DNA from: Schaalia canis | Lineage (GTDB): Bacteria > Actinomycetota > Actinomycetes > Actinomycetales > Actinomycetaceae | Direction of reading: 5' to 3' | Assembly (NCBI RefSeq): GCF_003858455.1 | Contig: NZ_RQZF01000003.1 | Location: 124,001 to 188,000, forward strand | DNA: 64,000 nucleotides | Shown here: positions 5,835 to 10,068 of the stretch, piece after piece | Layout of the letters: every line of letters starts with the position of its first letter | How positions within the stretch are numbered: the first letter of the stretch is position 1 | Translations under genes and position numbers: made by a program | The notes under the pieces: model-generated | The model's input: the letters and a program-made list of their open reading frames with translations, nothing else | Databases searched by the model: none | Told to the model about the DNA's origin: nothing

Positions 5835-6713
5835 CTAGCGAGAAAACACAACTGTTCGCGATCCGTCCATTAGAACGCGGTGCTCAGAGTGCCAGCGGAC
5901 GGCCTGAGCAAGGACGCGTCTTTCCACGTCCTGGCCCAATGCGACCATGTCGGCGGTTGAGTCGGCGTGGGTAACGCGGGTGACGTCCTGTTCGATAATG
6001 GGGCCTTCGTCAAGGTCAGGAGTGACATAATGCGCAGTTGCGCCAATAAGTTTCACGCCTCTTTCGTGAGCCTGCGCATATGGGCGAGCTCCCTTAAAAG
6101 ACGGAAGGAATGAGTGGTGAATATTAATGATTCGTCCCGCCATTTCTGCGCACACATTCTCTGAAAGAATCTGCATATAGCGAGCCAGAATCAATAGTTC
6201 AACATTTTCTGCACGCACGAGGGTCAACAGCTCTTCTTCCGCACGCTGTTTCGATTCCTTCGTCACAGGAACCAGAAGGAAAGGAATCCCGTAGAACTGG
6301 GCGACAGGGGCCAGATCAGGATGGTTGCCTACAACGGCAACAACCTCGATAGGAAGCCCCTGGGAGCGTTGACGATACAGCAGATCAGACAGGCAATGCC
6401 CCTCGCGTGAGACCATAATCACCGTGCGCAGCGGGCGGCCCAATTGGTCGACATTCCATGTGGCGCTAAAGCGCTGCTCAATTTCACGCATTCCTTCTTC
6501 AACCGGCTCACGGCCCACCGGCGAATCAACCTCAACGCGCATGAAGAACAGCCCCGAGTCGGGGTCTCCGAATTGCTGCGACTGAATGATGTTCCCGCCA
6601 ATACGCGTAATGACGCCAGTCACCGCGTGCACGATACCGGGCTGGTCCGGGCATGAGAGGGTGAGAACAAGCTTTTCCGACGTCGCAGCCGCGAGGGTTG
6701 AAGAATGTGTCAT
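5835..6713 (-). CDS. purU: Formyltetrahydrofolate deformylase
   Basis: The 292-aa enzyme hydrolyses 10-formyl-THF to formate and THF, balancing one-carbon units and feeding formate to purine synthesis. An N-terminal ACT domain (LVLTLSCPDQPGIVHAVTGV, ending near residue 90) is followed by a formyl-transferase fold with the catalytic trio: Asn and His in RIINIHHSFLPSFKGARPY, and Asp in YVTPDLDEGPIIEQD. Its length matches the family. The start at 6713 is chosen over an in-frame GTG at 6740. MTHSSTL leads directly into the ACT domain, and TACCCT lies 6 nt upstream, suggesting a leaderless transcript. It is a single-gene unit, divergent from the cystine transporter locus. Confidence 0.95.
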   Translation of the reverse strand: MTHSSTLAAATSEKLVLTLSCPDQPGIVHAVTGVITRIGGNIIQSQQFGDPDSGLFFMRVEVDSPVGREPVEEGMREIEQRFSATWNVDQLGRPLRTVIMVSREGHCLSDLLYRQRSQGLPIEVVAVVGNHPDLAPVAQFYGIPFLLVPVTKESKQRAEEELLTLVRAENVELLILARYMQILSENVCAEMAGRIINIHHSFLPSFKGARPYAQAHERGVKLIGATAHYVTPDLDEGPIIEQDVTRVTHADSTADMVALGQDVERRVLAQAVRWHSEHRVLMDGSRTVVFSR

Positions 6714-6719
6714 GGCCCT

Positions 6720-6725
6720 AGGGTA
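6720..6725 (-). promoter_or_regulatory. Probable -10 box of a leaderless purU transcript
   Basis: TACCCT on the minus strand ends 6 nt before the purU ATG. This spacing matches a TANNNT -10 element for a transcript that begins at or next to the start codon. No Shine-Dalgarno sequence is present, and the -35 region is not recognisable. Confidence 0.45.
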
Positions 6726-6749
6726 GCCCGCCCCGCTCACTGTTTTCCA

Positions 6750-6892
6750 CGAGTGGTCACATCCGACTGACCACTCGCATACCTTTACCCGTTGGCATCA
6801 TGGGCATTGAACTGTTACCTTTATGAACTGTTGTGATAGGTAGGGCCGTTGACCACTATTAACGCCCACCTCACACACCGACTTTGACCACT
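6750..6892. promoter_or_regulatory. Control region with four TGACCACT elements and a TGAACTGTT direct repeat
   Basis: CGAGTGGTCA (6750-6759) and TGACCACTCG (6768-6777) form a perfect 10-bp inverted repeat with an 8-nt gap. Two further copies of TGACCACT lie at 6850-6857 and 6885-6892, the last just before the ribosome-binding site of the leader peptide. TGAACTGTT occurs twice, at 6808-6816 and 6824-6832. TTGAAC at 6807-6812 could serve as a -35 box. The clustering points to one or more transcription-factor sites between purU and the cystine transporter unit. Confidence 0.5.
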
Positions 6893-6910
6893 CCTGAAGG
6901 GAACACTCTC

Positions 6911-6991
6911 ATGCAGACCCGCATGCACTCCTGGACGCACTCACTGCGCCACATGTGCTGCTGCCTGTGTTCCTGTCAAAGCGGCTTCTGA
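6911..6991 (+). CDS. Cysteine-rich leader peptide (26 aa) upstream of the cystine symporter
   Basis: A 26-codon frame starts with ATG at 6911 and stops with TGA at 6989-6991. GAAGGGA sits about 8 nt before the ATG, a good ribosome-binding site. The peptide has no resemblance to a folded protein. Its second half contains five Cys in seven codons (CCCLCSC, residues 16-22), preceded by the basic/His stretch SLRHM. Runs of codons for one amino acid in a short translated leader are the mark of attenuation by charged-tRNA supply. Here the next gene is a probable cystine transporter, so the amino acid and the downstream function agree. Actinobacteria are known to use Cys-containing leader peptides ahead of sulfur genes. 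The attenuation role is inferred. Confidence 0.7.
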   Translation: MQTRMHSWTHSLRHMCCCLCSCQSGF

Positions 6992-7047
6992 TCTTCACGC
7001 TCACCCTGAGCATCTCACTCACCGCCCGGCACCCGTCATGCCGACTA

Positions 7048-7085
7048 TGCGGTGAACTTCCGGCCGGACATGCCAACGCATTTTT
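7048..7085 (+). terminator. Candidate attenuator hairpin followed by T5
   Basis: TGCGGTG (7048-7054) can pair with CAACGCA (7074-7080) with one mismatch, and the intervening TCCGGCCGGA is itself a perfect palindrome. TTTTT (7081-7085) follows immediately. It lies 57 nt after the leader-peptide stop and 176 nt before the transporter start, where an attenuator would be expected. An upstream GGCA/TGCC pair (7029-7032, 7040-7043) could take part in an alternative fold. No folding calculation was made. Confidence 0.4.
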
Positions 7086-7260
7086 ACCGGCTTTCCCGGA
7101 CGCGGCACTGGCCTCGTCCATCAATTCACGATGACTGCCCAGCGGAATCGGACGTGGAACACACCCCTCCCCCTCTGCTCCCCACGGGCACTTATCCTCT
7201 GCGAAAAGCCTGACTTTCCCGGAAGATTACTGTCATCACCCTTAAACGAGAGAAACACTC

Positions 7261-8625
7261 ATGTCTGCAACCTCTACCGCCCCAGCGGCCCCTGAAACCT
7301 CATCTCGTCCTCGCAAGAGACTGCCCCTTCCCTCCTTCACCGTCCAGATCTTCCTGGGCCTGGGTATCGGCATTGCACTCGGCTTGCTTGCCTCTTACCT
7401 TCAGTCCAACGAGGGCGGCGGCGCGTGGCTGATTGCCACCATGAACTGGATTGGCTCCAGCTTCGTTACGCTTCTGAAAACTCTTGTGCCGCCGCTGATC
7501 TTTGCCGCAATGGTGGTCTCTATCAATAACCTCAAGGGTGTGGCCAACGCTGCGAGCCTGGCGGTTAAGACCCTCATCTGGTTTGCTATCACGGCCCTGG
7601 CCTCGGTTATTACCGGCATTATCTTGGGCCTTGTGATTAATCCGGGTCTGCACACCTCCATCACGAAGGACGCGGCCAACATGCCCTCGCGCGTGGGCCA
7701 CTGGTCGGACTTCCTGCAGGGACTTGTGCCGGGCAACTTCCTGGGCTTGGAAGTCCGAACCCGCGTGGTGGAAGACGTTGTCACCGCCTCGCCGTCCTTT
7801 AATGCCCTGCAGATTCTGGTCATTGGTATTGCCGTTGGTATTGCTGCACTCAAGGTTGGCGAGGCAGCCCAGCCTTTCATTGGTATCGTCGAATCCCTGT
7901 TAAAGGTGCTTCAGAAGGTCCTGTGGGGAGTTATTCGCTTGGCCCCCATTGGCACCGCCGGTCTGATTGGGCATGCGGTGGCCACCTACGGCTGGGATAA
8001 GGTCGCGTCCTTGGGCTGGTTCGTGCTGACGGTTTACATTGGTTTGCTGATCGTTGTCGGCGTCATTTACCCGGTGGTTTTGCGCCTAAACGGCCTTTCT
8101 CCCCTGGCTTTCTATCGCGGTGCCTGGCCGGCTATTCAGCTCGGGTTCGTGTCGCGTTCGTCCCTGGGGACCATGCCCGTCACGCAGCAGGTCACCTCGG
8201 ATAACCTCGGTGTGAACCCGGCTTACGGCTCCTTTGCCGTGTCTTTGGGTGCGACCACCAAGATGGATGGTTGCGCCGCCATCTACCCGGCAGTGGCCTC
8301 GATCTTCGTGGCTCAGTTCTTCGGCATTGAGCTGGCTATCACCGACTACCTGATTATCGCCTTCGTTGCCGTGGTCGGCTCGGCTGCAACCGCCGGCCTG
8401 ACAGGTGCGACCGTCATGCTGACCCTGACCCTGTCCACCCTGGGCCTGCCCCTGGAAGGCGTTGGCCTGCTGCTGGCTGTTGATCCGATCCTGGATATGG
8501 GTCGTACGGCTGTGAACGTTGCCGGTCAGGCATTGGTGCCCACAGTAGTCGCGGCCCGCGAAGGCCTGCTGGATCGGGTGCGCTTCATGTCGCGCTCAAA
8601 GGGCGAGGCTGTCGCGCAAGGCTGA
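7261..8625 (+). CDS. DAACS-family symporter, TcyP-like L-cystine transporter
   Basis: The 454-aa polytopic protein has the dicarboxylate/amino acid:cation symporter fold: a cytoplasmic N-tail of about 28 residues, around eight membrane helices, the Ser-rich hairpin SRSSLGTMPVTQQVT, the loop GATTKMDGCAAIYPAVASIF and the late motif DPILDMGRTAVNVAGQ. Where glutamate/aspartate carriers have NMDGTA, this protein has KMDGCAAIYP. That is close to the NGCAGIYP-type motif of the cystine carriers TcyP/YhcL, and it supports cystine rather than dicarboxylates. The Cys-rich leader peptide 270 nt upstream supports the same substrate. The ribosome-binding site is weak (GAGAG), which may matter for regulation. 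The gene is monocistronic and followed by non-coding DNA. Confidence 0.82.
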   Translation: MSATSTAPAAPETSSRPRKRLPLPSFTVQIFLGLGIGIALGLLASYLQSNEGGGAWLIATMNWIGSSFVTLLKTLVPPLIFAAMVVSINNLKGVANAASLAVKTLIWFAITALASVITGIILGLVINPGLHTSITKDAANMPSRVGHWSDFLQGLVPGNFLGLEVRTRVVEDVVTASPSFNALQILVIGIAVGIAALKVGEAAQPFIGIVESLLKVLQKVLWGVIRLAPIGTAGLIGHAVATYGWDKVASLGWFVLTVYIGLLIVVGVIYPVVLRLNGLSPLAFYRGAWPAIQLGFVSRSSLGTMPVTQQVTSDNLGVNPAYGSFAVSLGATTKMDGCAAIYPAVASIFVAQFFGIELAITDYLIIAFVAVVGSAATAGLTGATVMLTLTLSTLGLPLEGVGLLLAVDPILDMGRTAVNVAGQALVPTVVAAREGLLDRVRFMSRSKGEAVAQG

Positions 8626-9305: not shown

Positions 9306-10068
9306 GTCAGAAGGCTCCTAGCGCCATAAGGTGCATTGAGACGTTACGGTTTGTCACCATGCAAACAACACCGATCTCCCTGTCAGAAGGCTCCTAGCGC
9401 CATAAGGTGCATTGAGACCAGTAAAGCAAGAAGCTGTGTGTCCCCGTCTCCGATGGTCAGAAGGCTCCTAGCGCCATAAGGTGCATTGAGACCCAAAATA
9501 GAACCTAGTAGTGAGCAGTCCATTCTCATTGTCAGAAGGCTCCTAGCGCCATAAGGTGCATTGAGACGTGTTGTGGTGCCTTCGTGTGGGGTGAGTTTCT
9601 TTGGTCAGAAGGCTCCTAGCGCCATAAGGTGCATTGAGACTTCGGGTTCTCGATGACGATGTCATCTTTGCCGGACGTCAGAAGGCTCCTAGCGCCATAA
9701 GGTGCATTGAGACTCGACAGAATCACCGCGTTGCCACTCAGGTTAATACCCGGTCAGAAGGCTCCCAGCGCCATAAGGCGCATTGAGACGATGACTTTCA
9801 CGTCCACGCCAGCGGCCATGAGCAGTGGTCAGAAGGCTCCCAGCGCCATAAGGCGCATTGAGACAAATACTCCTGATACGCAGAGAACGCCAACATTGCC
9901 ATCAGAAGGCTCCTAGCGCCATAAGGTACATTGAGACTTTTCGGGATAGTCCGTTGAGTAGATTTCATCCCCCAGTCAGAAGGCTCCCAGCGCCATAAGG
10001 TGCATTGAGACGAAGAACTTTGCCCCCGGCGCGCTAGGAGGATAGACCGTCAGAAGCCTCCTCGCACC
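9306..10068 (+). CRISPR. Orphan CRISPR array: ten 37-bp repeats, ten spacers, one decayed terminal repeat
   Basis: Repeats begin at 9306, 9382, 9456, 9531, 9604, 9677, 9753, 9828, 9901 and 9975, and a truncated, diverged copy lies at 10049-10068. Each full repeat starts GTCAGAAGGCTCC and ends GGTGCATTGAGAC. Spacers are 39, 37, 38, 36, 36, 39, 38, 36, 37 and 37 nt and all differ. Repeats 1-6 are identical and changes appear only from repeat 7 on, so the leader is on the left. Inside the repeat, GCGCC-ATAA-GGTGC forms a 5-bp hairpin that leaves an 8-nt 3' end ATTGAGAC. This is the layout of class 1 (type I or III) repeats whose processing leaves an 8-nt crRNA tag, and it gives left-to-right transcription. 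No cas gene is present in the window. Confidence 0.97.

Follow-up and report, generated by a model that had tools for sequence, protein, structure and literature searches.

Short open reading frames (ORFs) with runs of cysteine codons are described upstream of the mycobacterial cys operons, the Propionibacterium acnes cys operon and Bifidobacterium longum cbs in two papers (Seliverstov 2005, PMC1262725; Shell 2015, PMC4633059). For the mycobacterial cys leaders, Seliverstov 2005 gives no conserved terminator, and pyrimidine motifs are weakly suggested there as Rho sites (PMC1262725). Here, we describe a candidate leader of this kind at positions 6911 to 6991 of a 64,000-nucleotide (nt) stretch of the Schaalia canis genome (contig NZ_RQZF01000003.1, positions 124,001 to 188,000), hereafter called the window, where it precedes a gene for a transporter of the DAACS family. 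Mycobacterial poly-cysteine short ORFs are reportedly also the subject of Canestrari 2020.

The poly-cysteine leaders share with the Schaalia leader the short ORF, the run of Cys codons near the stop, the position upstream of cysteine genes and the lack of a conserved terminator (PMC1262725, PMC4633059). They differ from it in their targets, which do not include a DAACS transporter, and the mycobacterial leaders are called leaderless, whereas in Schaalia a separate Shine-Dalgarno sequence precedes the leader. Another similar case is metL before metNIQ of Streptomyces lividans, an actinobacterial leader peptide with Cys and Met codons in front of an amino acid importer for which termination is unclear; its target is, however, an ABC transporter and the authors ascribe the leader to methionine (PMC8079986). 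An earlier note on this DNA had mentioned cysteine leader peptides of actinobacterial sulfur genes, which the papers cited above confirm (PMC1262725, PMC4633059), and had named no case with a TcyP-type target; our search of the open-licence PubMed Central literature likewise returned no paper describing a leader peptide before this transporter. Actinobacterial cysteine leaders themselves are thus already known, and what is new is that such leaders are common before this transporter in the class.

The features of the locus are the following.

6896..6903, + strand: Shine-Dalgarno sequence of the leader, GAAGGGAA, read directly; the same in Schaalia sp. Marseille-Q2122
6911..6991, + strand: leader ORF of 26 codons, MQTRMHSWTHSLRHMCCCLCSCQSGF, with ATG at 6911 and TGA at 6989-6991
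6956..6976, + strand: candidate regulatory run Cys-Cys-Cys-Leu-Cys-Ser-Cys (TGC TGC TGC CTG TGT TCC TGT), identical at the Marseille-Q2122 locus (L008)
6992..7260, + strand: spacer with 38% C and 20% G and without a terminator-like site, a candidate Rho-loading region, the C excess peaking in 7164-7241
7246..7253, + strand: weak Shine-Dalgarno-like sequence of the transporter gene, ACGAGAGA, read directly; GAGAGA precedes the start in L008 too
7261..8625, + strand: DAACS (SDF, PF00375) symporter of 454 amino acids with a TcyP-type GCAxxYPA loop, a probable cystine importer

The 26-codon frame, its plausible ribosome-binding site and the cluster of five Cys codons in seven, all claimed in the earlier note, are present, the codons being C16 C17 C18 L C20 S C22. 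The distance from the end of the leader to the start of the carrier gene on the same strand, given there as 270 nt, comes to 269 nt in our count. The statement that the Cys run directly precedes the stop had to be corrected, since four codons (Q, S, G, F) intervene. The leader frame is far above chance expectation: it is the only one among the frames of 10-60 amino acids on both strands of the window to have five Cys codons in seven, and a single frame of this class was found across 60 dinucleotide shuffles (mean 0.017 per window). Sites of the type TGYTGYTGYNNNTGY number 27 in the whole genome of S. canis (G000, 2.58 Mb), and four besides the leader (L101, L109, L111 and L113) have an in-frame start before the Cys run.

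The carrier matches PF00375 at 306 bits. Compared to proteins of Escherichia coli, it is 30% identical to the cystine symporter TcyP (YdjN; 144 bits), 29% to GltP (153 bits) and 25% to DctA (120 bits). It shares with TcyP the DAACS family, the SRSS element and the GATxxxxGCAxxYPA loop, the Cys of which GltP and DctA lack. The earlier designation as a cystine-type, TcyP-like carrier therefore holds for the loop, but not for overall identity, by which GltP is equally near. Since the substrate loop is of the TcyP type, we consider cystine the probable substrate, with the cysteine leaders as independent support.

These features amount to a small frame, with Cys codons clustered shortly before the stop, that lies ahead of, and on one strand with, a gene whose probable cystine substrate is read from its loop. 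Based on them and on the comparisons below, we regard ORF 6911-6991 as a cysteine-responsive attenuator leader of the transporter gene, whatever the readout, with a probability of roughly three in four. We infer that the leader is translated, that ribosomes stall on it and that it would respond to cysteine through the supply of Cys-tRNA.

Cysteine leaders ahead of the transporter gene in relatives

In order to survey relatives, 213 genomes of the family Actinomycetaceae, 34 of which have the transporter (E-value below 1e-90), and 394 genomes of the class, 109 of which have it including S. canis, were searched. The upstream regions were read in all 34 family genomes and at 107 of the 108 other class loci; the locus of G302 was left out because of a contig end, and G399 (L233) offered a short upstream stretch only. 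In the class, a leader was scored if HxDLxR or a close variant lay among the last 26 residues of a frame that also had a Cys close to its end. By this rule, leaders were found on the sense strand of 79 of the 107 loci, in 21 of 38 genera, and on the antisense strand of none (0/107). Since the HxDLxR detector was written after the first hits had been seen, this reverse-strand control is the fair comparison. A second rule applied in the same survey, demanding at least three Cys in the last 13 residues and no motif, added one sense locus and gave two antisense ones. An earlier motif-free count had accepted frames of 8-45 amino acids with at least two Cys in the last nine residues within 350 nt. 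It had yielded 20 of 34 forward loci in the family (2 reverse, 2.8 expected in shuffles), 53 of 107 in the class (9 reverse, 9.8 expected) and 8 of 32 in alphaproteobacterial relatives (3 reverse, 4.6 expected).

By inspection, a Cys-containing leader of some type precedes the transporter gene in 31 of the 34 family genomes and in 13 of 14 genera. Some of these leaders have an HxDLxR-like motif followed by Cys, e.g. MLNPWNLTMRHDVDLRRQASMLCASGTCC (L170). Others begin with MCCCMR (L150, L152, L158 and L161, with variants at L148, L162 and L164), mostly with a GGAG-type Shine-Dalgarno sequence ahead of GTG, and further types are poly-Cys ends (L202-L205) and the Schaalia type. By eye, the leader of L161 (MCCCMRQAFAMC) looks intermediate between the MCCC and the HxDLxRQASAMC leaders. 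The conservation among relatives by which the earlier note had proposed to judge its reading is, in the main, found, at 31/34 family and 79/107 class loci with 0/107 antisense; the exceptions are given below.

Synonymous variation was seen at the codons for H, V, D, L and R across 67 HxDLxR leaders. The 54-nt cores of such leaders (59 distinct; loci L145-L283) fold slightly better than their synonymous shuffles, 0 of 40 of which were as stable. Both the peptide and the RNA of these leaders may be under selection. Many of them have one or two Cys codons only, yet H-V-D-L-x-R is kept at the protein level with synonymous variation, and therefore the nascent peptide may aid stalling.

Within the genus, Schaalia sp. 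Marseille-Q2122 (L008, G032) was the closest relative found, its transporter being 91% identical. A DAACS gene of the close type (E-value below 1e-90) occurs in 2 of 35 genus genomes, and three more have distant DAACS matches only, at 24-27% identity. A profile of eight leaders, one row of which has a wrong residue near its start, matches strongly in the same two genomes (E-values 2e-11 and 4e-11, both being rows of the profile), so that leader and close transporter co-occur. Elsewhere in the 35 genomes, the profile gave nothing better than an E-value of 0.0098 and no convincing second leader; its short-frame hits L326, L327 and L330 look antisense to an ORF by eye and were taken as chance. 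A search of the 213 family genomes with the leader DNA gave strong matches in the two Schaalia species only, and the next match, L117 (E-value 1.8e-4), reads by eye as the antisense of an apparent cysteine desulfurase gene and was rejected. The L008 leader reads MQTRMRSWPHSLRHMCCCLCSCQSFL and agrees with that of S. canis in 22 of 26 residues.

The most similar database entry is NCBIfam NF042934, a cis_reg_atten model named 'putative leader peptide' with a cut-off of 27 bits; the literature search described above returned no paper on NF042934 by name. Matches to the entry occur in 49 of 60 class genomes, in 44 of them over the cut-off, compared to 0 of 14 control genomes. The gene following the leader was read in 30 loci, one per genome. 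It encodes a rhodanese or a DUF4395 protein in 7 loci each, a nitrite/sulfite reductase (NIR_SIR) in 3, a PAPS reductase in 2, and an APS kinase, CbiX or a CysM-like PALP enzyme in one each. The remaining loci have a luciferase-like monooxygenase (3), an NMT1-type binding protein (1), ROK (1), POR (1) or a gene unreadable by the rule (2). Counting rhodanese, NIR_SIR, PAPS reductase, APS kinase, CbiX and the PALP enzyme as sulfur-type, the next gene is of this type in 15 of 30 loci, i.e. sulfur and cysteine metabolism is the setting of NF042934 in at least half of the loci read. As an aside, DUF4395 follows these leaders as often as rhodanese (L294-L323), a hint that it works in sulfur metabolism. 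NF042934 matches also precede the transporter studied here, over the cut-off in G253 and G271 and below it in G242 and G267, and a Nocardiopsis leader has a match of 20.9 bits, below the cut-off. The HxDLxR...C pattern of the 79 class loci thus resembles this entry; the Schaalia peptide differs in lacking the HxDLxR motif and any match, and the S. canis genome has no NF042934 match at E-values up to 0.001.

Besides the equal overall distance of the carrier from TcyP and GltP, several observations weigh against the proposed role of the leader. Only 1 of 19 genomes of the class sample from other families of the same order has a Cys leader, leaving 18 without, and in the family three genomes of one genus (g17; L145-L147), whose transporters are the next-closest at 69-71% identity, have none. 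The survey counts come from related sequences and are not independent. Of the 60 genomes examined for NF042934, 8 bear the transporter (S. canis not counted), and in 4 of these 8 a match lies just before it, exceeding the cut-off in only 2. The Schaalia peptides match neither NF042934, at E-values up to 10, nor Pfam. Finally, a leave-out profile of the MCCC-type leaders of the family fails on the Schaalia peptide, which ranks 1720 of 1863 with composition correction on the corrected rows. Without this correction, the rank is 3 of 1863; the earlier rows had given ranks of 107 (corrected) and 3 (uncorrected) of 1839. We had considered homology between the Schaalia peptide and the remaining leaders of the family at the sequence level and dropped it on this failure. 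By position and composition, the Schaalia leader appears to be of the same kind as the others; homology to them is not claimed.

Possible readouts of the leader

The favoured mechanism is Rho-dependent attenuation. Transcription would begin upstream and a ribosome would translate the leader. With ample Cys-tRNA, the ribosome would pass the Cys codons and depart at the stop, and the bare C-rich, G-poor spacer would load Rho, ending transcription ahead of the transporter gene. With scarce Cys-tRNA, it would stall on the Cys run and mask the spacer or delay access to it, so that transcription would run into the importer gene and cysteine would be restored.

Spacer composition was scored over 141 loci, 100 of them with a leader by this scoring, and one locus whose spacer was shorter than 25 nt was set aside. 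Of the 99 spacers between leader and transporter gene, 98 have more C than G (on average 47% C and 25% G), compared to 35 of 69 stretches before the leader. When the 150 nt preceding the start are considered, C is in excess over G at 99 of 100 leader loci, at 32 of 60 generic intergenic stretches from the S. canis genome and at 27 of the 41 loci scored as leaderless, a control blurred by the fact that some of these have leaders by later inspection. A simple pattern scan revealed no terminator-like site in 6700-7300 of the window, the only region scanned. The C-rich, G-poor spacers together with this negative result favour Rho, which we consider possible as the effector at slightly under even odds.

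Two points weigh against Rho. The spacer in the window is predicted to fold, and C-rich composition is consistent with Rho without being proof of it. Furthermore, consensus folds were made for three groups of 20, 10 and 12 sequences, and in the group of 10 (g90, L175-L188) the leader forms 11 pairs at its end with nt -1 to -15 relative to the transporter start, by which the Shine-Dalgarno sequence of the transporter gene is covered. Because of this possible helix, our estimate for Rho was lowered slightly, from even odds, and in g90 the readout may be translational.

Translational attenuation is the main rival to Rho: the stall on the Cys codons would alter RNA folding or ribosome delivery and open the transporter start without any termination. 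The Mycobacterium smegmatis poly-Cys short ORFs of Canestrari 2020 are called translational attenuators in two papers (PMC13236596, PMC9031893). Apart from g90, the end of the leader lies about 30-60 nt before the script-chosen transporter start in some lineages, the leader cores are slightly more stable than their synonymous shuffles (see above), and in the minimum-energy fold of the window some bases of the Shine-Dalgarno-like stretch of the transporter gene are paired within a small local hairpin. However, the 11 pairs in g90 include none with a double change, and no such helix exists in the other two groups, the helices common to all three groups lying within the leader codons. A general pairing of the leader end with the transporter start was also rejected: for the 83 leader loci in which the gap measures 45 nt or more, the duplexes have a mean of -19.4 kcal/mol against -20.2 kcal/mol for shuffled leader ends, and in 4 of the 83 the real duplex was stronger than 38 or more of its 40 shuffles. 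Moreover, the strong C excess of the spacers is not required by a translational model. Altogether, we regard a translational readout as a rather doubtful but serious candidate.

Classical attenuation of the trp type, with a terminator and an antiterminator hairpin, is improbable. The 269-nt spacer would be long enough for it, and segment 6890-7290 is more stably folded than its shuffles (z -4.9). Yet the segment of the sister species is not unusually stable (z -1.1), no downstream hairpin shared by the two Schaalia folds was recognized by eye, and the intrinsic terminator that this model needs is absent from 6700-7300 by the scan mentioned above.

Codon conservation in Schaalia and elements around the leader

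The earlier note had expected conserved Cys codons with synonymous drift. The run is conserved in the relative, being identical in L008, but drift is absent between the two Schaalia species: residues conserved between them and encoded by degenerate codons have the identical codon in 18 of 18 cases in the leader, compared to 224 of 394 (57%) in the transporter gene. At the rate of the gene, 18/18 would arise with a probability of about 4e-5, or 2e-4 with residue-specific rates. The region flanking the leader has diverged between the two species. The codon identity points to selection on the leader RNA as well as on the peptide.

A stricter version of this idea is that an RNA structure, in which the Shine-Dalgarno region of the leader pairs with the Cys-codon stretch, is the conserved element and the peptide frame is incidental. 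Beyond the lack of synonymous change in the sense codons, it is supported by a stem, present in the folds of both species, in which GGGAACAC of the Shine-Dalgarno region pairs with GUGUUCC of the Cys codon region, and by the fact that the leader of the window folds better than 481 of 500 synonymous variants. On the other hand, the differences between the two leaders include the missense changes H6R and T9P within an intact frame, other actinobacteria keep Cys leaders with a different RNA sequence, and the Cys codons fit the probable function of the gene. We consider this explanation very improbable. A functionless Cys-rich frame arisen by chance, left room by the profile test that does not tie the Schaalia peptide to other leaders, is the least probable of all in view of the shuffle estimate, the conservation of the leader and its class-wide association with the transporter.

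Upstream of the leader, a palindrome of 26 bp, GAGTGGTC-N10-GACCACTC, often lengthened by CGC...GCG, lies at 6751-6776 of the window. It was considered as a dedicated operator and rejected, because it occurs 35 times in the genome (0 for the reversed-pattern control) and is thus not gene-specific. Of these copies, 33 lie in one 68-kb stretch (G000:C13:19691-87560; L289-L292) and one at C35:74420, and by eye they are mostly found between predicted frames beside housekeeping-looking genes. A slightly shorter form occurs 37 times in Schaalia sp. Marseille-Q2122, 21 times in G011 (20 within 64 kb), 16 times in G016 (within 128 kb) and once in G025, with none in the other 30 genus genomes. A chromosome-domain site and a mobile palindrome are the candidates for this region-bound element. 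Half-sites TGACCACT are located between palindrome and leader at 6850-6857 and 6885-6892. The second of them adjoins the Shine-Dalgarno sequence of the leader, and the site ahead of this sequence is kept in Marseille-Q2122; the window contains 7 such sites compared to 1.7 expected. Shortly downstream of the transporter gene, at 9306-10011, the window contains an array of ten repeats of about 37 nt at a spacing of 73-76 nt, resembling clustered regularly interspaced short palindromic repeats (CRISPR). A promoter scan at the locus found none, and the search against Rfam gave a single match, under the family cut-off and on the opposite strand.

Cystine import and cysteine supply

Taken together, one actinobacterial leader system, marked by the HxDLxR motif or by Cys runs, might adjust both the import of cystine and the assimilation of sulfur to the supply of cysteine. 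Rho would be the effector in many lineages, the nascent peptide might assist the stall, and the Schaalia leader would represent a variant with a Cys run in place of the motif. As a whole, we hold this joint reading to be unlikely, if worth stating.

The transporter joins the genes that are apparently under the control of cysteine leaders, and the only prior label found for the leaders of the class is the 'putative leader peptide' of NCBIfam. With a short leader and a single target gene, these loci are simple test objects for how cysteine leaders without a terminator act, a question since 2005. In addition, the leaders are evidence, independent of the transporter sequence, that places these DAACS carriers in sulfur nutrition.

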